Positions 8,062-63,864 of a stretch of DNA of 64,000 bases are shown in pieces. The translations under genes were made by a program, and so were the position numbers. Each line of letters starts with the position of its first letter. The first letter of the stretch is position 1. Where the stretch lies: positions 62,001-126,000 of the forward strand of contig NZ_JAFKJN010000022.1 of assembly GCF_017305915.1 (NCBI RefSeq), given 5' to 3'. The notes under the pieces were generated by a model, which was not told the origin of the DNA, did no database searches, and was given only the letters and a program-made list of their open reading frames with translations. This stretch comes from Reyranella sp. Its GTDB lineage: Bacteria; Pseudomonadota; Alphaproteobacteria; Reyranellales; Reyranellaceae.

Positions 8062-8375
8062 TGGCCAAGAATCTCAGCGGCGAGCTGCATGTCGCTTCCG
8101 CCAACCGTCTGCGCGACGGCATGGTGGTGTTCCTCGACGAGGCCGGCGAATGGACCACGCGCCTCGACCGCGCGGCGGTGGCCCGCGACGAGCGCAGCGC
8201 CGAGATCCTGCTGGCGCGCGCCCAGGCCGAGGCCTTCGGCGTCGTCGATTCCTTCCTGGTGGCGGTGGCGGAAAGCAACGACGGCACGCTCGAGCCGCTG
8301 TCGCTGCGCGAGAAGATCCGCGCCTCGGGCCTCACCTTCGACGCCATCGCGGCCGAGGCCGTGCGTTATGCCTGA
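8061..8375 (+). CDS. DUF2849 protein of the sulfite-reductase operon
   Basis: This 104-aa protein belongs to the DUF2849 family, which is found almost always between cysG and cysI in alphaproteobacteria. It is acidic and soluble and has no visible catalytic motif. Its ATG overlaps the cysG stop by one base (TGATG), and it overlaps cysI by 8 nt, so the three are translationally coupled. The role is unknown. Conserved linkage suggests an accessory for siroheme handling or for electron delivery to CysI, which here lacks a CysJ flavoprotein partner (inference). Confidence 0.85.
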   Translation: MAKNLSGELHVASANRLRDGMVVFLDEAGEWTTRLDRAAVARDERSAEILLARAQAEAFGVVDSFLVAVAESNDGTLEPLSLREKIRASGLTFDAIAAEAVRYA

Positions 8376-10041
8376 CACTCATTTTTACCGCTACGACGAC
8401 TACGACCGCGCGCTGGTCAGCGAGCGGGTCGCACAGTTCCGCGACCAGGTGCGCCGGCGGCTGGCGGGCGAGCTGACCGAGGAGCAGTTCAAGCCGCTCA
8501 GGCTCACCAACGGCCTCTACCTGCAGCTCCACGCCTACATGCTGCGCATCGCCATCCCGTACGGCACGCTGTCGACGCGGCAGCTGCGCCAGCTCGCGGC
8601 GATCGCCCGCAAGTACGATCGCGGCTACGGCCATTTCACGACCCGCCAGAACCTGCAGCTCAACTGGATCAAGCTCGAGGGCGCGCCGGACGCCTTGGCC
8701 ATGCTGGCCGAGGTCGACATGCATGCGATCCAGACCAGCGGCAACCTGATCCGCAACGTCACGGCCGATCATTTCGCCGGCGCCGCGATCGACGAGATCG
8801 AGGACCCACGCATCTGGTGCGAGATCGTGCGCCAGTGGTCGACGCTGCATCCCGAGTTCAGCTTCCTGCCGCGCAAGTTCAAGATCGCCATCACCGGCTC
8901 GCCCAACGACCGCGCCGCCGTGCGCGTGCACGACGTCGGCCTCCGGCTGTGGCGCAACGAGGCGGGCGAGACGGGCTTCGAGGTCATCGTGGGCGGTGGC
9001 CTCGGCCGCACGCCGATGATCGGCAAGACGATCCGCGAGTTCCTGCCGAAGGATGACCTGCTCGCCTATCTCGAGGCCACGCTCCGCGTCTACAACCGCT
9101 ACGGCCGGCGCGACAACCTTTACAAGTCGCGCATCAAGATCCTGGTGCACGAGATCGGGCCTGAGAAGATGCGCGAGGACGTCGAGGCCGAGTACGCCGC
9201 GATGAAGGACAGCGCGCTCAAGCTCACGCCAGAGACCATCGAGGCGATCGCTCGGCAGTTCGCGCCGCCGGCCCTGCGGTCCAAGCGCACCAAGGTGCCG
9301 GAGGTCGAGGCGCTGAAGCTCGAGAACCGCGCCTTCGCGCTGTGGCTCAAGTCCAACGTCGCGCCACACCGCGTGCCGGGCCATGCGATCGTGACGGCGT
9401 CGCTGAAGCCCGCCGGCGCGCCGCCGGGCGATGCGAGCTCAGCGCAGATGGAGGGCGTGGCCGACATCGCCGACGCCTGGAGCCAGGGCGAGGTGCGGGT
9501 CAGCCACGAGCAGAACCTGGTCTTACCGCATGTCGCGATCGAGGCGCTGCCCGAGGTCTACCGCGCGCTCGAGCGGCTGGGCTTCGCCGAGGCCAATGTC
9601 GGCAAGATCACCGACATCATCGCCTGTCCGGGGCTCGACTATTGCGCGCTGGCCAACGCGCGCTCGATCCCGGTGGCGCAGCGCATCTCGACGCACTTCG
9701 CCGAGCTGTCGCGCCAGCACGATATCGGCGACCTCAAGATCAAGATCTCGGGCTGCATCAATGCCTGCGGCCATCACCATGTCGGCCACATCGGCATCCT
9801 CGGCGTCGACAAGAACGGCGTCGAGCTCTACCAGATCAGCCTGGGCGGCGACGTCGACTTCGGCAAGACGGCGCTCGGCACGATCCTCGGCCCCGCGGTC
9901 GAGGCCGACAAGGTGGTCGAGGCGGTCGATGCCTTGGTCGCGACCTATCTCGAGGCTCGCCAGGCGGACGAGCGCTTCGTCGACACCTATCGCCGTATCG
10001 GGGCGCAGCCCTTCAAGGAGCGGGTCTATGGCGCTGTTTAG
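8368..10041 (+). CDS. cysI: Assimilatory sulfite (or nitrite) reductase hemoprotein
   Basis: This 557-aa siroheme/[4Fe-4S] reductase catalyses six-electron reduction of sulfite to sulfide in the cytoplasm. The duplicated ferredoxin-like half-domains are visible: GHFTTRQNLQLNWIKL in repeat 1 and a comparable segment, GEVRVSHEQNLVLPHV, in repeat 2. The cluster and siroheme ligands are CPGLDYC near residues 419-425 and CINAC near 462-466, followed by GHHHVGHIGILG. ATG 8368 was chosen because it fits the family N-terminus and overlaps DUF2849 by 8 nt. Neighbours cysG, DUF2849 and DUF934 favour sulfite over nitrite. No cysJ is present, so electrons probably come from ferredoxin or another donor. 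Confidence 0.93.
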   Translation: MPDTHFYRYDDYDRALVSERVAQFRDQVRRRLAGELTEEQFKPLRLTNGLYLQLHAYMLRIAIPYGTLSTRQLRQLAAIARKYDRGYGHFTTRQNLQLNWIKLEGAPDALAMLAEVDMHAIQTSGNLIRNVTADHFAGAAIDEIEDPRIWCEIVRQWSTLHPEFSFLPRKFKIAITGSPNDRAAVRVHDVGLRLWRNEAGETGFEVIVGGGLGRTPMIGKTIREFLPKDDLLAYLEATLRVYNRYGRRDNLYKSRIKILVHEIGPEKMREDVEAEYAAMKDSALKLTPETIEAIARQFAPPALRSKRTKVPEVEALKLENRAFALWLKSNVAPHRVPGHAIVTASLKPAGAPPGDASSAQMEGVADIADAWSQGEVRVSHEQNLVLPHVAIEALPEVYRALERLGFAEANVGKITDIIACPGLDYCALANARSIPVAQRISTHFAELSRQHDIGDLKIKISGCINACGHHHVGHIGILGVDKNGVELYQISLGGDVDFGKTALGTILGPAVEADKVVEAVDALVATYLEARQADERFVDTYRRIGAQPFKERVYGAV

Positions 10042-51897: not shown

Positions 51898-52838
51898 CCG
51901 CCGTCGCCGTGCTGGGCGGGACGGGCCTGATCGGCCGGCACGTCCTCGCGGCCCTGGCGCGGCCGGGCACGCCGATCGTCGCCACGGCCAACCGCCGGCC
52001 GCCGTTCGAGGCCGAGGGCGTGGAATGGCGGCAGGTCGACCTCACGGCGCTGGGCCCTGCGCGGGCGGCCCTGCGCGGCGCGCGGGGCGCGGTGATCTGC
52101 GCCGGCCGGCTGTCGACGGCGGCCGAGCTCAAGCGCGATCCGGTCGGTTCGGTCACCACCACCCTGCGCATCGGCATCAACGCCCTCGAGGCTGCGGCGG
52201 CGGAAGGCGTCGAGCGTGTCGTGCTGGTGAGCTCGACCACGGGTTATCCACCGGGGGAGGGGCCGAAGCTCGAGAGCGCCATGTTCTCAGGCGACCCGCC
52301 GGGCGACTGGTTCGGCGTCGGCTGGGTCCATCGCTTCCTCGAGAAGCAGCTCGAATGGTATTGCCGGCTGCAACGGATCGGCGCTGGCGTCGCATTGCGC
52401 CCGACCCTGGTCTACGGCCCGCACGATGACTTCGATCCGGCATCGGCGCATTTCGTGCCGTCCTTCATCCGCCGCGTGGTCGAGCGCGAGCGGCCGATCG
52501 AGATCTGGGGCGACGGCAGCCAGAGCCGCAATCTCATCCACGCCGCCGATGTGGCGGCGGCGATCGCCGCGGTGCTGCAGGACCGGGCGCCGGGCTTCGC
52601 GGCCTACAACGTGTCGGCCCCCGCCAGCAGCAGCGTCAAGCAGGTCCTGACCACCCTGGTCGAGCTCGACCGCTTCGACGATGCCGAGATCGTCTATCGC
52701 CCCGAGCGCGCGACCGGCGCCGGTGCGCTCGACGTATCGGCGGCGGCGTTCAGCGCGCGGTATGGCTGGCAGCCCGCGATGTCGCTGCGCGACGGTCTTG
52801 CCGGCACGCTCGACTGGTACCGGCGCTCAGCGGGTTAG
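51894..52838 (+). CDS. NAD-dependent epimerase/dehydratase-like protein with atypical active site
   Basis: This 314-aa extended-SDR protein has AVLGGTGLIGRHVL as its nucleotide-binding motif and VLVSSTTGYPP with the catalytic-Ser region. Where YxxxK should occur it reads DWFGVGWVHRFLEKQLEWY: neither the Tyr nor the Lys is in place. The downstream LRPTLVYGPHDDFDPASAHFVPSFIRRV and WGDGSQSRNLIHAADVAAAI segments match sugar-nucleotide epimerases. It shares the FGxGW signature and overall layout with the protein at 59259-60224. It may be a non-redox SDR or use another acid-base pair. It converges with Gmd, overlapping by 12 nt. Confidence 0.8.
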   Translation: MTAVAVLGGTGLIGRHVLAALARPGTPIVATANRRPPFEAEGVEWRQVDLTALGPARAALRGARGAVICAGRLSTAAELKRDPVGSVTTTLRIGINALEAAAAEGVERVVLVSSTTGYPPGEGPKLESAMFSGDPPGDWFGVGWVHRFLEKQLEWYCRLQRIGAGVALRPTLVYGPHDDFDPASAHFVPSFIRRVVERERPIEIWGDGSQSRNLIHAADVAAAIAAVLQDRAPGFAAYNVSAPASSSVKQVLTTLVELDRFDDAEIVYRPERATGAGALDVSAAAFSARYGWQPAMSLRDGLAGTLDWYRRSAG

Positions 52839-53846
52839 GAAACGGTCGCCTTCGTTGGCGATGCGCTCGCGCCAGTAATCGAGCAGGTCGCGCAGCGTCT
52901 TCTCGTAGGGGATCTCGGGCTTCCAGCCGGTGTGCTTCTCGAACTTGGCGGTGTTGGGCACCTGCAGGTCGGCATCGATCGGCCGCAGGCGGTCGGGATC
53001 GACCTCGACCTTGATGTCGTCCTTGAGCGGCGAGAAGGACTTCAAGGTGTTTAGGATGTCCCCGACGGTGCAGGAGTGAATGCCGCCGATGTTGTAGTAG
53101 GCGCCGGCGACCGGATTGACCGTGACCAGCATGTAATAGGCACGCACTGCGTCGCGCACGTCGGCGACGGTACGCAGCGATTGCAGGTTGCCCACTTTGA
53201 CCACTGGCGGAATCAAATTGCGCTCGATCATCGCGATCTGCTTGGCGAAGGTCGATTCGGCGAACACATCGCCGCGCCGCGGTCCGGTGTGGGTGAACAT
53301 GCGCGTCGTCATCACCGTCATGCCGTAGGCCTCGGCATAGAAGCGGCCGACCAGGTCGGTGCCGACCTTGGAGATTGCATAAGGCGAAGCGGGATGGAAC
53401 GAGCATTCCTCGTCGATCGGCAGCTTCTCCTTCGGCACGCGGCCGAACACCTCGGACGAGGCGCAGACATGGATCACCGCCTTGGGCGCATGCTCCTTGA
53501 GCGCGTCGAGCACGCGCACCGTGCCCTGGACGTTGGTGTCCATGGTGTCGAGCGGCGCGTCGAAGCTGGTCCGCGGGAAGCTCTGGGCGGCGAGGTGGAA
53601 GACGTAGTCGGGCTTGGCCTTGGCGACGACCTCGCGGATCGACATCGTGTCGCGCAGGTCGCCGTAGTGAAGAAACACCCGGTCGCCCGCGTTGATGCGA
53701 TGGGCGATGTGGCCGAGATTGTCCATGGGGCTGCGCCAGCGGCACATGCCGTGGATGTCCCAGTCGGTCTTCTCGAGCAGGAAGTCGGCGAGGTGGGAGC
53801 CGACCATTCCGGTGATGCCTGTGATCAAAACTCGCGGACGCGCCAT
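52827..53846 (-). CDS. gmd: GDP-mannose 4,6-dehydratase
   Basis: This 339-aa extended SDR converts GDP-D-mannose to GDP-4-keto-6-deoxy-D-mannose using bound NADP. It has GITGMVGSHLADFLL, NLGHIAHRINAGDRVFLHYGDLRD, the HLAAQSFPRTSFDAPLDTMDTNVQGT segment, ASSEVFGR, and YAISK with the catalytic Tyr/Lys near residue 159. TRMFTHTGPRRGDVFAESTFAKQIAMIE binds the nucleotide. The product feeds either GDP-fucose (Fcl) or GDP-3,6-dideoxy sugars (ColD), and homologues of both enzymes are encoded across the divergent gap. It could instead serve a GDP-rhamnose branch. Confidence 0.88.
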   Translation of the reverse strand: MARPRVLITGITGMVGSHLADFLLEKTDWDIHGMCRWRSPMDNLGHIAHRINAGDRVFLHYGDLRDTMSIREVVAKAKPDYVFHLAAQSFPRTSFDAPLDTMDTNVQGTVRVLDALKEHAPKAVIHVCASSEVFGRVPKEKLPIDEECSFHPASPYAISKVGTDLVGRFYAEAYGMTVMTTRMFTHTGPRRGDVFAESTFAKQIAMIERNLIPPVVKVGNLQSLRTVADVRDAVRAYYMLVTVNPVAGAYYNIGGIHSCTVGDILNTLKSFSPLKDDIKVEVDPDRLRPIDADLQVPNTAKFEKHTGWKPEIPYEKTLRDLLDYWRERIANEGDRFLTR

Positions 53847-53959
53847 ATCTCGTTCCCATAAAGGCGCCGCAACCTAGTGCAGGTAGGCAGGGGATGCCAC
53901 CATCGCTTGACCCGGCAGGGTCGAGCCGTCAAATTCCGCCGCCTTCCCGCGGAGACGAT

Positions 53960-54916
53960 GTGGAATCAAAGGTTTTCGACATCTCCGGCAAGCGAATCTG
54001 GGTGGCCGGCCATCGCGGCATGGTTGGTGCAGCCGTCGTGCGCCGATTGGCCACCGCCGGTTGCGAGATCCTCACGGTCGGCCGCGAGGAGGTCGACCTG
54101 ACCCGCCAGGCCGATGTTGAGCGCTGGCTCGACAAGGCGCGGCCCGACGCGATCGTGATGGCGGCCGCGCGGGTCGGCGGCATCCACGCCAATTCGACGC
54201 TGCCGGCCGACTTCCTGTTCATCAACCTGATGATCGGCGCCAACGTGGTGAATGCCGCGCACAAGGCCGGCGTGAAACGCCTGGTCAATCTCGGCAGCAG
54301 CTGCATGTATCCGGTCGGCGCGCCGCAGCCGATCTCTGAATCGAGCATCGGCAACGGTCCGCCCGAGCCGACCAACGAGGCCTATGCCGTGGCCAAGCTC
54401 GCCACCGCGAGCCTCGCCGCGACCTATCGCAAGCAGTACGGCGACGACTACATCACCGTGATCCCGACCAATCTCTATGGCCCGGGCGACAACTTCGATC
54501 CGCTGATGAGCCACGTCGCGCCGGCCATGATGCGGCGGATGATCGAGGCGCGCGACGCTCGGGCGCCCGAGGTCGAGATCTGGGGCACGGGCAAGCCACG
54601 GCGCGAGCTGATGTTCGTCGACGACGCAGCCGACGCGATCGCCTTCGTGCTCGAACGCTATTCGGCGGCCGAGCCGATCAATGTCGGCATCGGCGTCGAC
54701 GTCTCGATCCGCGAGCTGGCCGAGCTGATGGCGAAGACCGTCGGATACAAGGGCGAGCTCGTCTTCGATACCAGCAAGCCCGACGGCGCGCCGCGCCGAC
54801 TGCTCGACAGCGGCCGCCTGGCCGCGCTCGACTGGAAGGCGCGCACCCCGCTTGCCGATGGACTGGACGCCATGTATCGCTGGTACTGCCAACACAAGGT
54901 CGATGTAGCCGCCTGA
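53960..54916 (+). CDS. GDP-L-fucose synthase/ColC-like epimerase-reductase
   Basis: This 318-aa SDR of the Fcl/WcaG family catalyses C3/C5 or C5 epimerisation and C4 reduction of GDP-4-keto sugars with NADPH. It has IWVAGHRGMVGAAVVRRL, MAAARVGGIHANSTLPADFLFINLMIGANVVNAAHKAGVKRLVNLGSSCMYP, YAVAK (Tyr142, Lys146), and IPTNLYGPGDNFDP. The catalytic Cys of Fcl lies in SSCMYP, as expected. GTG 53960 has GGAG 5 nt upstream and was chosen over a longer frame. Followed by E1 and ColD genes, it may be ColC of a colitose-type pathway rather than fucose synthase; sequence alone does not separate them. The stop overlaps the E1 alpha start (TGATG). Confidence 0.88.
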   Translation: MESKVFDISGKRIWVAGHRGMVGAAVVRRLATAGCEILTVGREEVDLTRQADVERWLDKARPDAIVMAAARVGGIHANSTLPADFLFINLMIGANVVNAAHKAGVKRLVNLGSSCMYPVGAPQPISESSIGNGPPEPTNEAYAVAKLATASLAATYRKQYGDDYITVIPTNLYGPGDNFDPLMSHVAPAMMRRMIEARDARAPEVEIWGTGKPRRELMFVDDAADAIAFVLERYSAAEPINVGIGVDVSIRELAELMAKTVGYKGELVFDTSKPDGAPRRLLDSGRLAALDWKARTPLADGLDAMYRWYCQHKVDVAA

Positions 54917-55872
54917 TGGAAGAGCGTAGCAACAGCCCCGCGGCCCGCCTCTACCGATCGATGTATCTGATCCGCCGGGTCGAGGAGGAGATCGTCCGCC
55001 TCTACCCGACGGACAAGATCAAGAGCCCGGTGCATCTCAGCATCGGCCAGGAAGCGGTGGCGGCCGCGGTGTGCGATCACCTCGACAAGACCGACGTGGT
55101 GTTCGGCACCTATCGCGGCCATGCGCTGTATCTCGCCAAGGGCGGCGACGTGCCGCGCATGATGGCCGAGCTCTACGGCAAGGTCGACGGCTGCGCGCGC
55201 GGCAAGGCGGGCTCGATGCACCTGGTCGACCCGGCGGTCGGCATGATGGGCACGTCGGCCGTGGTGGCGACCGGCATCTCCAACGCAGTGGGTGCTGCGC
55301 TGGCGCTCAAGATGCAGCGCTCCAAGGCGATCGTCGTCTGCTTCTTCGGCGAGGGCGCGACCGACGAGGGCGCCTGGCACGAGAGCATGAACTTCGCCTC
55401 GCTCAGGAAGCTGCCGATCCTGTTCATCTGCGAGAACAACTTCTTCGCCATCTACAGCCACGTGAAGGACCGCATGGCCGGCCCCGGCCTGCGCGCGCGC
55501 TCGCGGGCCTACGGCATCGACGCCGAGCTGATCGAGGACCACGAGCCGATGCTGCTGCACGAGCGTGCCGGCGCGGCGGTCGCGGCGGTGCGCAGCGGCG
55601 CCGGCCCGCGCTTCCTCGAATGCATGACCTATCGCTGGCGCGACCATGTCGGGCCGGGCGAGGACCGCATCCACCAGTACCGGCCGGACGACGAGCTCGA
55701 CGCCAAGATCGAGGGCGACAACCTCAAGATCGTCGGCGACCTGCTGCCCGGCGACCTGCGCAAGTCGATCGAGGATGCCGAGGAGAAGCGGGTGGCCGAC
55801 GCCATCGCCTTCGCCGAGGCCAGCACCTTCCCCGAGGACCAGGAAATCTACGACCATGTCTTCTCGGGCTGA
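54916..55872 (+). CDS. TPP-dependent dehydrogenase E1 component, alpha subunit
   Basis: This 318-aa alpha subunit of a pyruvate/2-oxoacid dehydrogenase-type E1 starts RLYRSMYLIRRVEEEIVRLYPTDKIKSPVHLSIGQEAVAAAVCDHL. The TPP/Mg motif is GEGATDEG near residue 145 followed by MNFASLRKLPILFICENN. TYRGHALYLAKGGD and KAGSMHLVDPAVGMMGTSAVVATGISNAVGAALALK are typical. It lacks some of the phosphorylation-loop length of housekeeping PdhA. No E2 or E3 gene follows; instead it is sandwiched between ColC-like and ColD-like sugar genes. It may transfer an acyl anion equivalent to a keto-sugar (inference), not feed acetyl-CoA production. Confidence 0.9.
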   Translation: MEERSNSPAARLYRSMYLIRRVEEEIVRLYPTDKIKSPVHLSIGQEAVAAAVCDHLDKTDVVFGTYRGHALYLAKGGDVPRMMAELYGKVDGCARGKAGSMHLVDPAVGMMGTSAVVATGISNAVGAALALKMQRSKAIVVCFFGEGATDEGAWHESMNFASLRKLPILFICENNFFAIYSHVKDRMAGPGLRARSRAYGIDAELIEDHEPMLLHERAGAAVAAVRSGAGPRFLECMTYRWRDHVGPGEDRIHQYRPDDELDAKIEGDNLKIVGDLLPGDLRKSIEDAEEKRVADAIAFAEASTFPEDQEIYDHVFSG

Positions 55873-56935
55873 ATCTTCGCGGCCCGATGGGCGCACCCTG
55901 ACCTATGGCGAGGCTGTTTTCGAGGCGACACGGTCGGAGATGGCGCGCGATAGCCGCGTCTTCGTCATGGGCCAGGGCGTCGACGATGCGCGCGGCATGT
56001 TCGGCACCACGCTAGGCCTGCATCGCGAGTTCGGCGCCGAGCGCAGCTTCGACGTGCCGCTCGCCGAGGACGCGATGACCGGCGTCGGCATCGGCGCGGC
56101 CCTGATGGGCATGCGGCCGATCCAGGTGCACCAACGCATGGACTTCGTGCTGCTGGCCATGAACCAGCTCGTCAACATGGCGGCGAAGATGAGCTACATG
56201 TTCGCCGGCGCCCACAAGGTGCCGATGGTGGTGCGCGCCATCATCGGTCGCAGCTGGGGGCAGGGGGCGCAGCACAGCCAGGCGTTCCACTCCTACTTCA
56301 TGCACATCCCCGGCCTGCGCGTGGTCGCGCCGACCACGCCGCACGACGCCAAGGGCTGCCTGATCCAGGCGATCCGCGACGACAACCCGGTGATCATGAT
56401 CGAGCACCGCATGCTGCATAACGTGAAGGGCGTGGTGCCGGAGGAGAGCTACGAGATCCCCTACGGCAAGGCGCGCGTGCTGAGCCCGGGCAAGGACATC
56501 ACCATCGTCGGCATCAGCCACATGGCGCTGGAGTGCGTGCGCGCCAAGCACCTGCTCGAGGCCGCCGGCATCGACGCCGAGGTGATCGACCCGGTGTCGC
56601 TGGCGCCGCTCGACATCTCGACCATTGCGGCCTCGGTGGAGCGCACCGGGCGGCTGCTGGTGGTCGACACCGGCTGGCTGAGCTGCGGCGCCTCGTCGGA
56701 GATCCTGTCCGAGGTGTTCGAGCGGATCGGCGAACGGCGCCATTTTGTCGCCAAGCGGCTGGGCTACCTGCCGACTCCCTGCCCGACGACCAAGATCCTC
56801 GAGAATCTGTATTATCCGTCGCCGCAGTCGATCGCCCAGGCCACTTACCGGCTGGTGCGCGGCGCCGAGGCCCCGGCCTGGCAGCCGGGCAAGGTCGACA
56901 GCGCCGAAGTCGCGGAATTCCGCGGCCCGTTCTAA
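55856..56935 (+). CDS. TPP-dependent dehydrogenase E1 component, beta subunit
   Basis: This 359-aa beta subunit pairs with the preceding alpha subunit in an alpha2beta2 E1. It has LTYGEAVFEATRSEMARDSRVFVMGQGVDD, FDVPLAEDAMTGVGIGAALMGMRPIQVHQRMDF, VVRAIIGRSWGQGAQHSQAFHSYFMHIPGLRVVAPTTPHDAKGCLIQAI, and the C-terminal transketolase domain VDTGWLSCGASSEILSEVF. The HSQAFHSYF segment supplies the His that protonates TPP intermediates in E1 beta proteins. It overlaps the alpha gene by 17 nt. The ColD gene begins 10 nt after its stop. Its C-terminal region ends in a short non-conserved tail. Confidence 0.9.
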   Translation: MSSRAESSRPDGRTLTYGEAVFEATRSEMARDSRVFVMGQGVDDARGMFGTTLGLHREFGAERSFDVPLAEDAMTGVGIGAALMGMRPIQVHQRMDFVLLAMNQLVNMAAKMSYMFAGAHKVPMVVRAIIGRSWGQGAQHSQAFHSYFMHIPGLRVVAPTTPHDAKGCLIQAIRDDNPVIMIEHRMLHNVKGVVPEESYEIPYGKARVLSPGKDITIVGISHMALECVRAKHLLEAAGIDAEVIDPVSLAPLDISTIAASVERTGRLLVVDTGWLSCGASSEILSEVFERIGERRHFVAKRLGYLPTPCPTTKILENLYYPSPQSIAQATYRLVRGAEAPAWQPGKVDSAEVAEFRGPF

Positions 56936-56945
56936 GCTTAGCTGA

Positions 56946-58247
56946 ATGCCCGAGGGTTTGATGCCGGACAAAGACGCGTTGCGCGCCGCCGTATTCAAGG
57001 CTGTCGAGGACTATTGCTCCGCCGACTTCGGTTACTCGTTCGACCCGAAGAACCCGGTCGTGCGGCTGCACGAGCCGACCTTCAGCGCCGGCGAGATCAA
57101 TGCCGCGCTCGAATGCCTGCTGTCGACCTACGTCACCATGGGCCCCAAGGTGAAGAAGTTCGAGGAGGTCTTCTGCTCGACCTTCGGCTGGACCGACGGC
57201 GTGATGAACAACTCGGGCTCCTCGGCCAACCTGCTGGCGGTGGCTGCGCTCGCCAACCCGGCGACCGAGGACGGGCTCAAGCCGGGCGACGAGGTGATCG
57301 TGCCGGCGCTCTCCTGGTCAACCACGGTGTGGCCGGTGATCCAGTGCGGCCTGGTGCCGGTGATCGTCGACATCGACCCCCAGACCTTCAACATCGATCC
57401 CAACGAGATCGAGAAGGCGATCGGGCCGAAGACCCGCGCGGTGATGATCGTGCCGGTCTACGGCAATCCGTGCGCCATGGACGCGATCGTCGACATCTGC
57501 AAGCGCAAGAACCTCATCCTGATCGAGGATTGCTGCGAGGCGCTGGGCGCCTATTACGACGGCAAGGCGGTCGGCAAGTTCGGCCGGGTCGGCACCTTCA
57601 GCTTCTACTTCTCGCACCATCTGACGACGCTCGAGGGCGGCATCACCGTCACCGACGATTTCGAATTGGCCGAGCTGATGCGCATCCTGCGCGCCCATGG
57701 CTGGGTGCGCGAGGTCAAGGACCGCGAAAGCTGGCTCAAGAAATATCCCGAGTTCGACCCGCGCTTCCTGTTCGTGAACGTGGGCTACAACCTGCGCCCG
57801 ATGGAGCTGTCGGGCGCGATGGGCCTGGTGCAGCTGCCCAAGCTCAAGCAGTTCGTCGACGTCCGCCGCCAGAACTCGGCCTGGTTCCGCCGCGAGCTCG
57901 CCCAGTACGGCGACTTCTTCGACTTCCAGGAAGAGCAGCCCAAGGGCCATCACTCGTGGTTCGGTTTCCCGATCCGGGTCAAGGGCAATGCCGGCTTCAA
58001 GGTGACCGAGCTCACCAAGGCGCTGAACGCCAAGCATGTCGAGACCCGGCCGATCATCGCCGGCAACATCGCCCGCCAGCCGGCGCTCAAGATGTACGAG
58101 CACCGCGTGGTCGGCGACATGAAGCATGCCAACGCCGTCATGGACGGTGCCTTCTCCTTCGGCAACCACCAGGACGTGGACTCCGGCGCACGCCAGTACG
58201 TGGCCGAGCAGGTCCGTGCCTTCCTGCGCTCACGGTCGTTGATCTAG
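56946..58247 (+). CDS. colD: GDP-4-keto-6-deoxy-D-mannose 3-dehydratase (ColD-like), DegT/DnrJ fold
   Basis: This 433-aa PLP/PMP enzyme of the DegT/DnrJ/EryC1 fold carries FSFYFSHHLTTLEGG: the Lys that normally binds PLP is His224, as in ColD and E1/RfbH 3-dehydratases. ColD-like features are ALSWSTTVWPVIQCGLVPVIVDIDPQTFNID, RAHGWVRE, VGYNLRPMELSGAMGLVQLPKL, SWFGFPIRV and ETRPIIAGN, SFGNHQ. The [2Fe-2S] Cys cluster of RfbH/E1 is absent, so the RfbH route is unlikely. It removes the C3 hydroxyl of GDP-4-keto-6-deoxymannose using PMP renewed by glutamate. About 30 N-terminal residues exceed the ColD I recall. It follows E1 beta by 10 nt in one operon. Confidence 0.85.
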   Translation: MPEGLMPDKDALRAAVFKAVEDYCSADFGYSFDPKNPVVRLHEPTFSAGEINAALECLLSTYVTMGPKVKKFEEVFCSTFGWTDGVMNNSGSSANLLAVAALANPATEDGLKPGDEVIVPALSWSTTVWPVIQCGLVPVIVDIDPQTFNIDPNEIEKAIGPKTRAVMIVPVYGNPCAMDAIVDICKRKNLILIEDCCEALGAYYDGKAVGKFGRVGTFSFYFSHHLTTLEGGITVTDDFELAELMRILRAHGWVREVKDRESWLKKYPEFDPRFLFVNVGYNLRPMELSGAMGLVQLPKLKQFVDVRRQNSAWFRRELAQYGDFFDFQEEQPKGHHSWFGFPIRVKGNAGFKVTELTKALNAKHVETRPIIAGNIARQPALKMYEHRVVGDMKHANAVMDGAFSFGNHQDVDSGARQYVAEQVRAFLRSRSLI

Positions 58248-58251
58248 GCAG

Positions 58252-59262
58252 ATGATCATCACCCGCACCCCGCTTCGCATCTCGTTCTTCGGCGGCGGCA
58301 CCGACTATGCGCCGTGGTTCCGGGAGCATGGCGGCGCGGTGCTGGCGACGACCATCGACAAGTATCTCTACCTGCACTGCCGCTACCTGCCGCCGTTCTT
58401 CGATTTCAGGAGCCGCATCGTCTGGTCGAAGATCGAGCAGGTCCAGGAGCCGGGCGAGATTGCCCATCCGGCGATCCGCGGCATCCTCGAATGGCTGAAG
58501 ATCGGCGAGGGCGTCGAGATCCACCATCACGGCGACCTGCCGGCGCGCACGGGATTGGGCTCCAGCTCGTCCTTCTCGGTCGGCCTGCTGCATGCCCTGC
58601 ACGCGCTGCGCGGCGAGCTGGTCTCCAAGCGCAAGCTCGCCGAGGAGGCGATCTTCGTCGAGCAGCAGGTGCTGAACGAGACGGTCGGCGTCCAGGACCA
58701 GATCCAGTCGGCCTTCGGCGGGCTGAACCGCATCGACATACGGACCGACGGCTCGTTCGAGGTCTCGCCGCTGGTGGTGCGCGCCGACCGGCTGTTGGGG
58801 CTGCAGAAGCACCTGCTGCTGCTCTACACCGGTCTGTCGCGCACGGCCTCGGAGATCGCCGCCGAGCAGGTCTCGACCATCGGCAGCAAGACCGCCGAGC
58901 TGAAGGCGATGCGCGAGATGGTCGACGAGGGCGAGCGCATCCTGGTCGGCAGCGGCGACCTGCGCGATTTCGGCCGCCTGCTCGACGAGAGCTGGAAGCT
59001 GAAGCGGCAGCTCTCGAGCAAGATCGCGCCGGGCTTCGTCAACGAGATCTACGACACCGCCCGCCAGGCCGGCGCCGACGGCGGCAAGCTCCTGGGCGCG
59101 GGCGGCGGCGGCTTCATGCTGATCTTCGTGCAGCCCGAGCGGCGCACGGCGGTGCTGCGGTCGTTGAGCAGCCTTCTGCCCGTGCCGTTCCAGTTCGAGC
59201 GCGGCGGCACGCAGATCGTGCTCTACGAGCCGACCGCGCAGAACGGCAACGGCCACGGATGA
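58252..59262 (+). CDS. GHMP kinase, D-glycero-D-manno-heptose-7-phosphate-kinase-like (HddA type)
   Basis: This 336-aa GHMP-fold sugar kinase has RTPLRISFFGGGTDYAPWFREHGGAVLATTIDKYLYL at the N-terminus. The ATP motif is ARTGLGSSSSFSVGLLHALHAL. EQQVLNETVGVQDQIQSAFGG contains the catalytic Asp region, and GADGGKLLGAGGGGFMLIFV is motif 3. HddA proteins phosphorylate heptose-7-phosphate at C1 in GDP-heptose synthesis; related kinases act on fucose or other sugars. Partner genes gmhA, gmhB and hddC are not in the window, so the exact sugar is uncertain. It starts 4 nt after the ColD stop and overlaps the next start. Confidence 0.85.
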   Translation: MIITRTPLRISFFGGGTDYAPWFREHGGAVLATTIDKYLYLHCRYLPPFFDFRSRIVWSKIEQVQEPGEIAHPAIRGILEWLKIGEGVEIHHHGDLPARTGLGSSSSFSVGLLHALHALRGELVSKRKLAEEAIFVEQQVLNETVGVQDQIQSAFGGLNRIDIRTDGSFEVSPLVVRADRLLGLQKHLLLLYTGLSRTASEIAAEQVSTIGSKTAELKAMREMVDEGERILVGSGDLRDFGRLLDESWKLKRQLSSKIAPGFVNEIYDTARQAGADGGKLLGAGGGGFMLIFVQPERRTAVLRSLSSLLPVPFQFERGGTQIVLYEPTAQNGNGHG

Positions 59263-60224
59263 GCCGCACCCGTGTTCTGGTCTGCGGCGCCACCGGCTTC
59301 ATTGGGCGCAATCTCGTCGAGACCCTGAGCCGCCGCGGCGACCTCGAGGTTCATGCGGTGCGCTTCACCCGGCCGGAATATGCCGCCAAGGGCGTCACCT
59401 GGCACCAGGCCGACCTGCGCGAGGCCGCCCAGGTCAACGCCCTGCTGCGGGGCATGGACATCGTCATCCAGGCGGCGGCGACCACCTCGGGCGTGCGCGA
59501 CATCGTCCGCACGCCCTACATCCACGTGACGGACAACGCCGTCATGAACTCGCTGCTGTTGCGTGCCTGCTTCGACCACAAGGTGCGGCACTTCCTGTTC
59601 TTCAGCTGTTCGGTGATGTACCAGCCGCGCGACACGCCGTGGCGCGAAGAGGAGTGGGACGCGTCGCGGGAGATGCACGCCAACTACTTCGGCATCGGCT
59701 GGACCAAGCTCTACATCGAGAAGATGTGCGAGTTCTTCAGCCGGCTGGGCATGACCAGGCACACGGTGATCCGCCACACCAACGTCTTCGGCCCGCACGA
59801 CAAGTTCGACCTCGAGCGCAGCCATGTGCTCGGCGCCACGGTAACCAAGGCGATGACCAGCCGGACCGGCGCCATCACCGTCTGGGGCACCGGCGAGGAG
59901 GCGCGGGACCTGATCTACATCGACGACCTCGTGCGGTTCGTCGAGCTCGCGATCGAGCGCCAGACGGCGCCGTACGAGATGCTGCATGCCAGCGCCGGCG
60001 AGGCGATCCGCATCAAGGACCTGGTGGCGCGCATCGTCGCCGCGTCGGGTCGCGACCTGCGGATCGAGCACGACCCGGCCGGACCGACTATCAAGACGTC
60101 TTTCGCCTTGGATAATCGGCGGGCGCGGGAAAAATTCGGCTGGCAGCCGCAAGTGGCGTTCGCCGAGGGTGTGCAGCGGACCGTCGCGTGGTGGCGCGCC
60201 AACCTCGGCACGGGCACGCCGTGA
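59259..60224 (+). CDS. NAD-dependent sugar epimerase/reductase-like protein with atypical active site
   Basis: This 321-aa extended SDR has VLVCGATGFIGRNLVETL, LFFSCSVMYQPRDTP, TVIRHTNVFGPHDKFDLERSHVLGATV and VWGTGEEARDLIYIDDLVRFVELAI, all typical of sugar-nucleotide epimerases. The active-site region reads NYFGIGWTKLYIEKM: Lys is present but the Tyr expected four residues earlier is replaced. The same FGxGW signature occurs in the protein at 51894-52838, so this is a subfamily. It could be the reductase completing a branched or deoxy sugar (YerF-like role), which is inference. ATG 59259 overlaps the kinase stop. Confidence 0.8.
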   Translation: MSRTRVLVCGATGFIGRNLVETLSRRGDLEVHAVRFTRPEYAAKGVTWHQADLREAAQVNALLRGMDIVIQAAATTSGVRDIVRTPYIHVTDNAVMNSLLLRACFDHKVRHFLFFSCSVMYQPRDTPWREEEWDASREMHANYFGIGWTKLYIEKMCEFFSRLGMTRHTVIRHTNVFGPHDKFDLERSHVLGATVTKAMTSRTGAITVWGTGEEARDLIYIDDLVRFVELAIERQTAPYEMLHASAGEAIRIKDLVARIVAASGRDLRIEHDPAGPTIKTSFALDNRRAREKFGWQPQVAFAEGVQRTVAWWRANLGTGTP

Positions 60225-61192
60225 GGTATCGCGCGCTCGGGTGCACCGGGCTTAGCGTCTCGGAGATCGGCTTCGGCGCCTGGGGTATTGGCGGCCGCAC
60301 CAGCGGCACGACGTCCTATGGCGACACCGACGACCGGACCTCGCTGGCGGCGCTGGCGCGGGCGCTCGATTGCGGCATCACCTTTTTCGACACCTCGGCT
60401 GCGTACGGAAACGGACACAGCGAGACATTGATCGGCCAGGCCTTCGCCGGCCGCCGTGACAAAGTTATGATCGCCACCAAGGCTGGATACGACAGCTGGG
60501 ACCGACCGCCGGATTTCTCGGCGGATGCGGTCGCAGCCTCGGTGAAGAAAAGCCTGAGGCGGTTGTGCAGCGACTACATCGACCTTCTGCAGTTGCACAA
60601 CCCGCCGGCCGAGGCGCTGCGCGACGAGCGCCTGCGCGGGGCGCTGGCGCGGTTGCAGGCCGACGGCAAGATACGCGCCTGGGGCGTGTCGGCCAAGAGC
60701 CCCGCCGAGGCGATCGAGGCGCTCGCCGAATTCGGCGCGCCGGTGATCCAGGCCAATTTCAACATGATGGATGTGCGCGCCCTCGAGAGCGGCTTGCTGG
60801 CCGAGGCCGAGCGGCGGGGCGCAGGCTTCATCGGCCGCACGCCGCTCTGCTTCGGTTTCCTGTCGGGAACGATCGCCCGCGGCACGGTCTTTCCGCCGGG
60901 CGATCACCGGCTGGGCTGGTTGCAGGCGCAGCTCGACAACTGGATCGAGGGCGCGGGCGATCTGCTCCAGGCGGTGGGGGCCGCTCCGGGGACCGCCGGC
61001 GCCCAGGCGGCGCTGCGGTTCTGTCTGGCCTTTCCGGCGGTGTCGACGGTCATTCCGGGGATCCTGAAGCCGGAAGAAGCCGATCAGAATGCCGCGGCAA
61101 GCACCGCCGGGCCGCTATCGGCGGCGGCGGTCGATGCGGTTCTGGCGATCAATCGGCGGCGGCAGTTCTTCGTCGCCCGGCCGCGAGGCTAG
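60221..61192 (+). CDS. Aldo/keto reductase
   Basis: This 323-aa TIM-barrel NADPH-dependent reductase starts RYRALGCTGLSVSEIGFGAWGIGG. The catalytic Asp/Tyr/Lys/His tetrad can be seen as DTSAAYGNGHSE (Asp, Tyr), TKAGYDS (Lys) and LQLHNPP (His). C-terminal phosphate-binding ALRFCLAFPAVSTVIPGILKPE. The GTG start overlaps the preceding stop. As last gene of the sugar operon it may reduce a keto-sugar intermediate. Confidence 0.9.
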   Translation: MRYRALGCTGLSVSEIGFGAWGIGGRTSGTTSYGDTDDRTSLAALARALDCGITFFDTSAAYGNGHSETLIGQAFAGRRDKVMIATKAGYDSWDRPPDFSADAVAASVKKSLRRLCSDYIDLLQLHNPPAEALRDERLRGALARLQADGKIRAWGVSAKSPAEAIEALAEFGAPVIQANFNMMDVRALESGLLAEAERRGAGFIGRTPLCFGFLSGTIARGTVFPPGDHRLGWLQAQLDNWIEGAGDLLQAVGAAPGTAGAQAALRFCLAFPAVSTVIPGILKPEEADQNAAASTAGPLSAAAVDAVLAINRRRQFFVARPRG

Positions 61193-61359
61193 GTTGGATT
61201 GTGAGGAATAATCAACCAGAAGTTGTGGTTCGATGATCGGGACGACGACGGGCGGCAACTTCATGTGGCATGTTAAGGTCGTACCGAAAATTCTGCGGCA
61301 AACTCGGCAAATCTATGCTTTAGGATAGTGAACTCGCCTCCGTATTGTATCAGGACCTC

Positions 61360-63864
61360 ATGACGTTACTTCCGGTAGGAGCGCCAATTTCTGCGTCCAG
61401 ACCCCTAGTTTCGATCATCTGGTACGGTAAGAACCGCGTACAATCGGTCGAAAAAGAGATCGGCAGGGTATTCCAGCAGCGTTACGTCAATTGGCAGCTC
61501 GTCGTGGAAGATGGGGGGTCAACCGACGGTACCCTCGGCTGGTTCCGCCGTCAGGCGGAGAGTGACGCGCGGATTGACGTTGCCTCGCAGGAAACCTCTT
61601 TGCCGGGAGAGGCGCTGCTGCGCGCCCTGCGCCGCTGCAAAGGCGCGTACATCGCGATCTGTCCGGCGAACGCCGGCTTGACGCCGGATGCGCTGGAATT
61701 CGCCGTTCAGACCCTCGAAGAGGCGCCGGATATGGGCGCGGTCGCCTGCCGTGGCCTGCTGGTCGATGCCGACGGCGATGCAGCACCCGTGCAGTTCGAC
61801 CTGGCGATGGCGCTGTTCACGCCCCTGCGCATCGCTGCGCACGGCGGAATCATTCGCCGCTCGGCGCTGATCGAGAGCGGCCTGATGCGGGACGATTGGC
61901 GAAAGGGCTGCGTGGAGCTCGACCTGTGGTGCCGCCTCGCCATGGATCACGAGATCGTCGTCGCCGACCGGACGATCGTCGACGGCAAGGCCGCGCGCAA
62001 TACCGTCAATTCTGCATCGGACGCCGACCGGCTGGTCGACGATCATCTGAGCTATGTCGAGTCGCTTTTCGACAAGAACAATTTCTTCGGCGACGCTGGC
62101 GATCCCGCCTTGCAGTACGAATGCATGGCCAATCAGCTCGGCATCCTGCGCGAGGAGCTTCGCGGCGTCGGAGCGCGGGCCGTGGATCGCCGCCGCCGCG
62201 AGCTCGCGGACAAGGTCGCGCATCTCTTGAGCTACGACGGCCGGACGCAGCGCAGTCTCGAGCGCTGGCACCGGATGTGGCGGATGCCGATTCCACTCGA
62301 AGGCCTGCCGGCGATAGCCCTCATGCTTTTCCTCGCCTGGCACTGGCAGTCGCTTTGCCGCTCGCTCGTCCGCATCGGCTTCCGGGCACGCAGCCGCAAG
62401 CTCGGCGATCGGGAGATCAGCCAGCTGCCGGCGCTCTTCGCCGATCTGTATGCGACACAAGCCGAGCGCTACAACGCCCACGGCCAGGTCGCGACGGCCA
62501 TCCACAACTGGCGCATCGCCGAGTCCCTGGGCGACGCGATGCAGGACAGCATGGCGGTCCAGGCCGAACTGAAGCGCCCCGGCGCCACGGAAGCGAGTCT
62601 GGTCAAGGTCCACAAGCGATGGGTGGCGCGTCATGTGACGGAGATGGCGCCGATCGAGCCGTGCAGTCTGCCGCAGTGGGACGGGCGGCGGAAGATCCGC
62701 GTCGGCTATCACTGCGCCTTCATGCATCTCGACACCATCCAGTACATGATGGCGCGGGTGTTCCAGGCCCACGACAGGGACCGCTTCGAGATCTACGGCT
62801 ATTCGCCGTTTCCGTTGCCGCCCGACATCGCGCAATGCTTCGACGTGGTCCGCGATACCTCGACGACGACCGAGGATCCCGAGCGGGTGATGTTCCACAA
62901 GACCGCGATGAAGTCGCACGCGGCGTTCCGGAGAATGGTCTGCGCCGACGGCATCGACGTTCTGGTCGAATTGACGGGTTTCTCGCCCGGCCATCGCTTT
63001 CCGGCGATGGCCCTGCGATGCGCACCCGTGCAGGTGAGCTTTCTCAATCACACGGCGTCGAGCCAGGTGCCGAACGTCGACTACATTCTCGCCGACGAGA
63101 TCTGCCTTCCCGCATCGGGCGGCTACGAGGCATTCTACTCCGAGGAAATCTACCGCCTGCCGGGATGTTTCTTCTGTTTTGATTACCGAGGGTCGAATTA
63201 TCCGCCGATCGCCGAGCCGCCGTCGCTCAGCAAGGGCTACGTGACGTTCGGCTGCTTCGGCTTCGGCGGGAAGCTCAACTTCCAGCTGGTCCAGCTGTGG
63301 GCGGAATTGCTGCGCCGGGTCCCGTCGTCCCGGCTCCATATCCAGAACGTCCAGATCGTCAACGAGCGCAGCCGGCGCTTCTGGGCCGAGCGCTTCCGCA
63401 GCCTGGGCGTCGATCCCGAGCGGCTGACCCTGGCCAACGGCGTCGACCGACAGGCGCTGCTGAAGGTCTACGCCGACATCGATATCAGCCTGGACACCTG
63501 GCCCTATTGCGGCGGCAACAGCATCGCCGAAGCGCTGTGGCATGGCGTGCCGGTCATCACGCTGAAGGACGACCGGTTCGCCTCGCGCTACGGCGCGTCG
63601 CTGCTGGCCGCTGCGGGATGCGCCGACCTCGTCGCCGACTCGCCCGAGCAGTATGTCGCCATCGCCAAGCGACTCGCCGGCGATCCGGCGCGTCTCACCC
63701 AGCTGCGCCACCGTCTGCGCGACATGTCGATCGAATACGGCCTCGGCGATTCGGTCGGGTTCGCGCGCCGGCTGGAGGATGCCTATGCCGACATGCTGTC
63801 GCGTGTCGGCAATCAACGGCTGGGCCGCCGCGGCAGCATAGGGCTCTCAGGCGCGTATTCATGA
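61360..63864 (+). CDS. Bimodular glycosyltransferase: GT2-like domain + SPINDLY-type GT41 domain, paralogue 2
   Basis: This 834-aa protein has a GT2-like N-terminal domain (PLVSIIWYGKNRVQSVEKEIGRVFQQRYVNWQLVVEDGGSTDGTLGWF), a hydrophobic patch near residue 310 (ALMLFLAWHW), and a TPR-like helical linker. The GT41 domain reads KIRVGYHCAFMHLDTIQYMM, LVELTGFSPGHRFPAMALRCAPVQVSFLNHTASSQVPNVDYILADEI, YVTFGCFGFGGKLN and ISLDTWPYCGGNSIAEALWHGVPVITL. ATG 61360 is chosen; TTG 61345 is in frame with no better ribosome-binding site. It is a paralogue of 39309-41768. It follows a 150-bp AT-rich gap with its own likely promoter. Its stop overlaps the next GT2 start (ATGA). Confidence 0.87.
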   Translation: MTLLPVGAPISASRPLVSIIWYGKNRVQSVEKEIGRVFQQRYVNWQLVVEDGGSTDGTLGWFRRQAESDARIDVASQETSLPGEALLRALRRCKGAYIAICPANAGLTPDALEFAVQTLEEAPDMGAVACRGLLVDADGDAAPVQFDLAMALFTPLRIAAHGGIIRRSALIESGLMRDDWRKGCVELDLWCRLAMDHEIVVADRTIVDGKAARNTVNSASDADRLVDDHLSYVESLFDKNNFFGDAGDPALQYECMANQLGILREELRGVGARAVDRRRRELADKVAHLLSYDGRTQRSLERWHRMWRMPIPLEGLPAIALMLFLAWHWQSLCRSLVRIGFRARSRKLGDREISQLPALFADLYATQAERYNAHGQVATAIHNWRIAESLGDAMQDSMAVQAELKRPGATEASLVKVHKRWVARHVTEMAPIEPCSLPQWDGRRKIRVGYHCAFMHLDTIQYMMARVFQAHDRDRFEIYGYSPFPLPPDIAQCFDVVRDTSTTTEDPERVMFHKTAMKSHAAFRRMVCADGIDVLVELTGFSPGHRFPAMALRCAPVQVSFLNHTASSQVPNVDYILADEICLPASGGYEAFYSEEIYRLPGCFFCFDYRGSNYPPIAEPPSLSKGYVTFGCFGFGGKLNFQLVQLWAELLRRVPSSRLHIQNVQIVNERSRRFWAERFRSLGVDPERLTLANGVDRQALLKVYADIDISLDTWPYCGGNSIAEALWHGVPVITLKDDRFASRYGASLLAAAGCADLVADSPEQYVAIAKRLAGDPARLTQLRHRLRDMSIEYGLGDSVGFARRLEDAYADMLSRVGNQRLGRRGSIGLSGAYS

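Follow-up and report, generated by a model that had tools for sequence, protein, structure and literature searches.

An iron-sulfur-independent, ColD-like sugar 3-dehydratase predicted in Reyranella is encoded in a conserved operon with a pyruvate dehydrogenase E1-like gene pair

The question raised by a 64,000-nucleotide stretch of a Reyranella sp. genome (contig NZ_JAFKJN010000022.1; the whole stretch is called the window here) is what the DegT-fold protein encoded at positions 56946 to 58247 does and which sugar it works on. The original prediction for this gene was a ColD-type 3-dehydratase, not an aminotransferase, and a nearby Gmd was taken to imply a pathway from guanosine diphosphate (GDP)-mannose. 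Judging from its sequence, the protein is in all probability an iron-sulfur (Fe-S)-independent, ColD-like nucleotide-sugar 3-dehydratase and not an aminotransferase. The conserved operon setting is more interesting than the enzyme class and predicts a GDP-linked, C-branched 3,6-dideoxyheptose. The gene and its key codon, in which PLP and PMP stand for pyridoxal and pyridoxamine phosphate, are placed as follows.

56946-58247, forward strand: His-type 3-dehydratase open reading frame (ORF), 433 amino acids, ColD-like and, by sequence, PMP dependent and Fe-S independent
57615-57617, forward strand: codon of His224, which occupies the position of the PLP lysine in aminotransferases and the column of ColD His188

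With FSFYFSHH starting at residue 218, residue 224 is the first of the two His in "SHH". In alignments with PDB entries, it shares a column with the first His of the ColD SHH, the column mutated to N in ColD chain 3b8x and to K in chain 2r0t; the title of 3b8x names its mutation H188N. When the window protein was aligned with ColD, E1 dehydrase, and 49 relatives (long rows being cut to about 450 to 480 residues), the column held His in 42 of the 52 rows, the window protein included, and Lys in the other 10. The placement of His224 at the PLP-lysine position in the original prediction therefore holds, and the comparison with ColD and RfbH/E1 that it proposed finds no Lys there. A 14-row alignment of selected His-type sequences also shows no variation at His224, and this conservation across the His-type homologues means that it is no chance substitution. 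The Fe-S cysteines of RfbH and E1 are missing, as predicted: at the four E1-dehydrase cysteine columns of the 52-row alignment, the window protein reads V-RL, and although the exact residues vary between alignments, a cysteine is never among them. At least three of these cysteines occur in 8 of the 52 rows, E1 dehydrase being one. In a larger set of 85 homologous ORFs from the fetched loci, 77 have His at the key column (59 without the Fe-S cysteines and 18 with them) and 8 have Lys. A 61% identical homologue (L031:4060-5343) retains the catalytic His, but its second His is replaced by Leu (SHL versus SHH).

Names in databases tell a different story from the active site. The Pfam match is PF01041, the DegT/DnrJ/EryC1/StrS aminotransferase family (316 bits), and the best NCBIfam model is RfbH, at 355.5 bits and below its cut-off of 423. 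Aminotransferase and rfbH are the names of 11 each of the 25 plasmid homologues listed, the other 3 being without a listed gene, which makes the expectation that automated annotation would say aminotransferase a fair one; the homologue of Azospirillum lipoferum is named aminotransferase, yet its key column holds His and the Fe-S cysteines are missing. The first plasmid match in the list, with 40.7% identity, comes from an archaeal plasmid (Haladaptatus pallidirubidus NZ_CP085304.1:227793-228977) and is annotated as an aminotransferase. In the PDB, the best sequence match is ColD (2gms, 290 bits, residues 50 to 410; 41% identity), followed by E1 dehydrase (3bcx, 246 bits, residues 12 to 425; 35% identity). 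An AlphaFold2 model has a predicted local distance difference test (pLDDT) score of 90, with values below 50 only at residues 1 to 3 and 223 to 228, the latter being the active-site loop. A fold search with this model ties E1 dehydrase (Z 52.2, 2.3 Å over 411 residues) with ColD (Z 51.7, 2.0 Å over 380 residues) at the top, and sugar aminotransferases rank lower, at Z 47.7 and below. We rejected an aminotransferase identity because the Schiff-base lysine is missing, its place being taken by His224. Membership in the RfbH/E1-dehydrase group was rejected on the absent Fe-S cysteines and the score under the RfbH cut-off, the tie in the fold search notwithstanding.

A maximum-likelihood tree of 81 rows, from which seven fragments or duplicates were excluded, contains a Lys group of 8 rows (support 100/99), an RfbH group of 19 rows including E1 dehydrase (100/99), and an Fe-S-free group of 52 rows (100/98). 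The last group does not include two long Fe-S-free rows, L153 and L106, and support is weak (96/49) for the deeper split of RfbH from the rest. The window protein belongs to a 17-row clade (100/80; 16 rows and 100/98 without L073), whose sister is the clade of E. coli ColD (35 rows, 100/100), and in this tree it is not inside the clade that holds ColD. The sequence signs back the predicted 3-dehydratase class, and because of them the enzyme should work like ColD, but it is no ColD orthologue, being 41% identical and part of a sister clade that has retained an RfbH-like N-terminal extension.

The second half of the original prediction, a Gmd nearby, fares worse. The gene in question encodes a short-chain dehydrogenase/reductase (SDR) at 52827-53846 that scores 176 bits against the gmd model, with a cut-off of 415, and its closest solved relative is the GDP-heptose 4,6-dehydratase 7us5, at 349 bits versus 150 bits for 1db3. 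By sequence, this SDR is a heptose enzyme, and we rejected it as a local Gmd. The true gmd of the genome (593 bits) is on another contig (C56:328223-329236), where it adjoins its own fucose-synthase-like gene (484 bits, cut-off 500). Because the neighbor is a homologue of GDP-heptose 4,6-dehydratase and related loci carry heptose-type genes, the GDP-mannose pathway drawn from it is unsupported, and a heptose is the probable substrate of the window dehydratase.

That prediction was also incomplete, in that it overlooked a conserved gene pair directly upstream of the dehydratase. The genes from 53894 to 61192 form a tightly packed operon on one strand, with the SDR at 52827-53846 divergent from it; in the list, TPP is thiamine pyrophosphate, PDH is pyruvate dehydrogenase, and NAD is nicotinamide adenine dinucleotide.

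52827-53846, reverse strand: GDP-heptose 4,6-dehydratase-like SDR (7us5, 349 bits; GDP-mannose 4,6-dehydratase 1db3, 150 bits)
53894-54916, forward strand: GDP-L-fucose-synthase-like SDR, a possible C3/C5-epimerase and C4-reductase (NF047922, 448.8 bits, cut-off 500)
54916-55872, forward strand: E1alpha-like TPP subunit, proposed alpha subunit of a two-carbon transferase (PF00676; NCBIfam; PDH E1alpha 1ni4, 134 bits)
55856-56935, forward strand: E1beta-like subunit, proposed beta subunit of the same enzyme (Transket_pyr and Transketolase_C)
58252-59262, forward strand: GHMP kinase, with the heptose 7-phosphate kinase HddA as its best named match (NF049969, 129 bits, cut-off 600)
59259-60224, forward strand: NAD-dependent epimerase/reductase-type SDR, a recurrent neighbor that is 57 to 90% identical where present
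60188-61192, forward strand: aldo/keto reductase, a candidate branch-ketone reductase (PF00248, 177 bits; longest ORF, start codon uncertain)

The E1alpha, E1beta, and dehydratase genes overlap or lie 10 bases apart, and the in-frame ATG of E1beta, at 55856, is within the 3' end of E1alpha. Both chains are PDH-E1-like, and E1alpha retains the GEG...NN TPP motif. The window E1alpha is 33% identical to the best E1alpha of the genome, on contig C17 (presumably PDH), and falls in a separate clade. The genome has three E2 matches, on C17, C42, and C44, all of them contigs other than that of the operon; a housekeeping PDH was rejected for the window pair, given that the best E1alpha and one E2 match share contig C17. 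The E1alpha proteins of 28 of the 31 loci examined form a clade with that of the window (29 rows, support 0.92), from which the C17 E1alpha, the proteins of L030, L071, and L157, and a second pair on the same contig as the operon are excluded. That second pair lies downstream of the window (L015:2673-4702; C6 about 146673-148702), and its E1alpha is 40% identical to the first; it has an unusual TPP motif (GDA, not GDG or GEG) and is flanked by a GmhA-like isomerase, a dehydratase-type SDR, and a methyltransferase-like gene. From L030:6810 on and L071:3750 on, which are on one contig, a highly divergent E1alpha-like gene (about 27 to 30% identity, motif altered) is found on the opposite strand near a 62 to 64% identical dehydratase.

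Precedents for such a pair come from antibiotic biosynthesis, where PDH-E1-like pairs put a two-carbon (C2) branch on keto-sugars according to passages of PMC12247030 and PMC4425429, and the same is proposed for everninomicin in part of PMC10338323. The same passages of PMC12247030 and PMC4425429 have YerE adding a C2 branch to cytidine diphosphate (CDP)-3,6-dideoxy-4-keto-glucose; the yersiniose route uses this single protein, and the aldo/keto reductase Pau7 reduces such a branch, as passages of PMC4753412 describe. By analogy, the window pair points to a C-branched sugar, and we lean towards two-carbon branching as its role. Coxiella virenose was dropped as a precedent, as "pyruvate dehydrogenase" does not occur in passages of PMC3204966.

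The linkage of the pair to the dehydratase is conserved. Loci were taken from one scan of genome contigs (20 loci, 19 used after removal of the fragment L040) and from two genome samplings. The first sampling fetched 40 of 52 outside-genome matches with long flanks, those skipped being mostly full length, lower scoring, and probably RfbH type; the second fetched 20 of 56 places, mostly the best ColD-type matches plus four RfbH-like ones. For the linkage count, we dropped L071 (same contig as L030) and loci with less than 2.5 kb upstream, which left 52 of 58 ColD-type, 16 of 18 RfbH, and 6 of 8 Lys-type loci; collapsing at 85% identity gave 40 ColD-type and 15 RfbH loci. An E1 pair lies within 6 kb at 18 of these 40 ColD-type loci and at none of the 15 RfbH loci, counts that are not rates for all bacteria and under-sample RfbH because fetching favored ColD-type matches. 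Before collapsing, the figures were 29/52 for ColD, 0/16 for RfbH, and 0/6 for the Lys type. In 15 of the 18 E1-linked loci, the pair is immediately upstream on the same strand; at L072 and L095 it is on the other strand, and at L099 it is downstream. The order E1alpha-E1beta-ColD recurs even where the dehydratase is 39 to 43% identical, and the whole block of heptose-type SDR, fucose-synthase-like gene, E1alpha, E1beta, 3-dehydratase, and GHMP kinase recurs in L021, L022, L023, L025, L026, and L027, from metagenome bins titled Enhydrobacter, Rhodospirillales, Rhodospirillaceae, or Proteobacteria, with dehydratases 79 to 96% identical. In the tree, 10 rows of the 17-row window clade have linked E1, as do 18 rows (at least one E1 gene) of the 22-row subclade that is sister to the 8-row subclade with E. 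coli ColD; in this last subclade, a true-gmd-type gene lies within 6 kb in six of the seven genome rows and E1 in none.

Genes for heptose supply follow the same pattern. At the 18 E1-linked ColD-type loci, we find a GHMP kinase at 15, an HddC-like gene (at least 70 bits) at 13, a GmhB-like gene at 6, a GmhA-like gene at 3, and any of the four at 16; at the 22 loci without an E1 pair, the corresponding numbers are 4, 3, 0, 2, and 7. A true gmd (at least 250 bits) is present at 2/18 and 7/22, respectively, the latter being 8/22 by identity. Fisher tests gave p values of 0.001 for E1 against class, 8e-5 for the GHMP kinase, 0.08 for true gmd, and 0.07 for the heptose-type SDR, values that are only indicative because related loci are not independent. 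The heptose-gene queries came from L072, L083, and the window, all of them E1 linked, so L072 and L083 match themselves. L072 surrounds a 51% identical dehydratase with an E1 pair, a heptose-type SDR, a GHMP kinase, GmhB (188 bits, over the cut-off of 149.6), HddC (190/300), and GmhA (189/209), the last two under their cut-offs. On plasmid AZO_p6 of Azospirillum lipoferum 4B, E1alpha, E1beta, and the ColD relative are consecutive, and an HddC-GmhB fusion (118/300 and 148/178 bits) lies two genes before E1alpha on the other strand. For Reyranella itself, the HddA model was run on the window proteins and the GmhA, GmhB, and HddC models on the whole genome. The sole GmhA match of the genome is on the same contig, about 21 kb beyond the operon (C6:144538, 122 bits, cut-off 209), and the genome's GmhB and HddC matches reach 139 bits (cut-off 149.6) and 100 bits (cut-off 300). 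The best PDB matches of the GHMP kinase are a "putative sugar kinase" (4usm, 137 bits) and a heptose kinase (3k85, 132 bits). Contig C4 encodes a fusion of an HddC-like nucleotidyltransferase with a GmhB-like phosphatase (about 20.5 to 21.7 kb; L169 about 7492-8619).

The window thus holds a candidate, by homology, for each role in the following proposed pathway. GDP-heptose would be 4,6-dehydrated to a GDP-4-keto-6-deoxy sugar, whose 4-ketone would form a ketimine with PMP; His224 would abstract the PMP C4' proton, and the C3 hydroxyl would depart. Hydrolysis would give a GDP-4-keto-3,6-dideoxy sugar, ammonia, and PLP, with glutamate regenerating PMP and no Fe-S cluster taking part. This follows the ColD mechanism in passages of PMC8987622, in which PMP is joined to the 4-ketone as a ketimine, the active-site His removes a proton, the C3 hydroxyl is lost, hydrolysis leaves an enamine and PLP, ammonia is set free, and glutamate restores PMP; the same course is proposed, and its product reported, for GDP-6-deoxy-4-keto-heptose of Campylobacter jejuni in part of PMC10440746. 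The 4-ketone would then be the acceptor for the E1alpha/E1beta TPP enzyme, which would decarboxylate pyruvate and transfer the two-carbon unit onto C4; reduction of the added acetyl group to 1-hydroxyethyl may fall to the aldo/keto reductase, which is present in the window-type loci, or to the SDR at 59259. This would yield a GDP-linked 3,6-dideoxyheptose with a yersiniose-like branch at C4, destined for a surface polysaccharide. The sequence shows directly the His-type active site, the missing Fe-S cysteines, and an operon that is conserved; we infer that the enzyme acts as a dehydratase, that its substrate is a heptose, that pyruvate is the donor, and that a branch is added. For the pathway as a whole, from heptose 4,6- and 3-dehydration to C4 branching by the E1 pair, we would give at best about an even chance.

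Several points weigh against this pathway. The activities, donor, and product of the operon genes are all predicted, and the fucose-synthase-like enzyme (53894) could compete for the 4-ketone, its gene fitting an unbranched product. The substrate is not readable from the sequence of the dehydratase, because the heptose 3-dehydratases of C. jejuni are 62 to 67% identical to ColD (passages of PMC10440746). In the window clade, 7 of the 17 rows have no linked E1 pair, one of them having just 1.2 kb upstream; the E1-linked rows are spread over two ColD-type clades without making up all the members of either, and the locus sampling leaned towards ColD-type matches. The GmhA-, GmhB-, and HddC-like genes of the genome and the HddA-like kinase of the window are all below curated cut-offs, and three of these four homologues lie outside the window. 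HddC-like scores of at least 70 bits are not specific, because they also occur in 7 of the 15 RfbH loci; at 100 bits or more, the numbers are 13/18 for E1-linked, 2/22 for E1-less, and 1/15 for RfbH loci, with a threshold picked after the scores were known. No GHMP kinase match was seen in the 21-kb Azospirillum lipoferum stretch, and the aldo/keto reductase is absent at most of the non-window-type E1-ColD loci examined.

An unbranched GDP-3,6-dideoxyheptose, as in C. jejuni HS:5 and HS:11, would arise if the fucose-synthase-like SDR epimerized the sugar and reduced its 4-ketone while E1alpha/E1beta acted on another keto-sugar or made another compound. The route of 4,6-dehydratase, PLP-dependent C3-dehydratase, C5-epimerase, and C4-reductase is established in C. 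jejuni according to passages of PMC10440746 and PMC10680097, the window has a candidate for each of its steps, and the second E1 pair farther along the contig indicates that such pairs may serve other sugars here. It leaves unaccounted for the overlap or 10-base spacing of the E1alpha, E1beta, and dehydratase genes, the persistence of their linkage down to ColD relatives that are only 39 to 43% identical, and the absence of E1 pairs from all 15 nonredundant RfbH loci, and we consider it unlikely.

Two further explanations alter the substrate or the chemistry. ColC of colitose synthesis, an enzyme of the fucose-synthase-like SDR type, acts on the 4-ketone, and the first gene of the operon encodes an SDR of this type; with a true gmd in the genome (593 bits) and ColD as the best PDB sequence match, the dehydratase could be a plain ColD-type enzyme that takes GDP-4-keto-6-deoxy-D-mannose to a colitose-like GDP-3,6-dideoxyhexose, the E1 pair serving another sugar. 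This is improbable when the true gmd sits on another contig beside a fucose-synthase-like gene of its own, the linked dehydratase is heptose-like, and true gmd is rare at E1-linked loci (2/18) and commoner elsewhere (7/22 by bit score; 8/22 by identity, p 0.08). Less probable still is an aminotransferase that lacks its Lys, or a 3-dehydratase that, in the manner of E1/RfbH, depends on an external reductase and has an unrecognized Fe-S or flavin partner, even though the N-terminal extension and length are RfbH-like, the best NCBIfam match is RfbH (355 bits versus a cut-off of 423), and E1 dehydrase is a top fold match tied with ColD. All four cysteines and the Schiff-base Lys are absent, and ColD and E1 dehydrase show no transaminase activity under conditions where SpnQ does, as stated in passages of PMC8987622.

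Set beside known systems, the window enzyme resembles ColD/WbdK of E. coli (2gms and 3b8x) in its His for the PLP lysine, its lack of Fe-S cysteines, its fold, and its SWSTT and SHH..T.EGG motifs; it differs in being 41% identical, in a separate clade, and about 35 residues longer at the N terminus, and in that its gene is linked not to a true gmd but to E1alpha/beta and a GDP-heptose-type dehydratase. It shares the His-type site, length, N-terminal extension, and fold with the CDP-4-keto-6-deoxy-D-glucose 3-dehydrase E1/RfbH (3bcx) but is 35% identical and without the Fe-S cysteines. PLP/glutamate 3-dehydration after a GDP-heptose 4,6-dehydratase is published for C. jejuni HS:5/HS:11 and proposed here, except that C5 epimerization and C4 reduction come next in C. 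jejuni and not a TPP enzyme. The proposed order of 4,6-dehydration, 3-dehydration, and TPP-dependent C2 transfer to the 4-ketone is that of the yersiniose A pathway (E1 dehydrase and then YerE), which in contrast uses a CDP-hexose, an Fe-S dehydrase, and the single flavoprotein YerE, where we propose a GDP-heptose, an Fe-S-free dehydratase, and a two-subunit E1-type enzyme. By their description, the alphaKADH2 C2-transferases of antibiotic pathways are comparable two-subunit, PDH-E1-like TPP enzymes with the TPP motif and linkage to sugar genes; like them, the window pair has no E2 nearby and is distinct from the C17 E1alpha of the genome, but they make antibiotic sugars as secondary metabolites, whereas the pair described here lies next to a 3-dehydratase in polysaccharide-type loci of Alphaproteobacteria. 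The scan of ten window proteins gave no CDP-sugar gene above its cut-off.

Two kinds of gene close to these loci were seen in passing. After the operon, at 61345-63864, comes a glycosyltransferase that combines a family 2 with a family 41 (O-GlcNAc-transferase-like) domain, and similar genes are found near several E1-ColD loci. B12-binding radical SAM proteins are encoded at an E1-ColD locus (L083:12629-14140) and downstream of the window (L014:10420-12447), with look-alikes in L084 and L093.

Among the papers listed by searches of an open-license library, none described, by title and abstract, a pathway that joins E1 to ColD or to GDP-heptose; an in silico survey of TPP-dependent enzymes (Krug et al. 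2024, cited in the passages of PMC12247030) may already include some of these E1 genes. The branched lipopolysaccharide sugars discussed in passages of PMC4753412 and PMC12247030 are assigned there to YerE or YerE-like enzymes. The names aminotransferase and TPP-dependent dehydrogenase E1 subunit, as given by database pipelines, hide what would be a coherent and conserved pathway and, if our reading is true, a Gram-negative GDP-sugar route to C-branched sugars via an E1-type carboligase. We suggest tentatively, at somewhat less than even odds, that this is a widespread alphaproteobacterial route to GDP-linked nine-carbon branched sugars, the logic of yersiniose rebuilt on GDP-heptose with different enzyme families. 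As a working rule, a branched dideoxyheptose would be expected where a ColD relative is accompanied by both GDP-heptose genes and an E1 pair, and colitose where it is accompanied by a true gmd.

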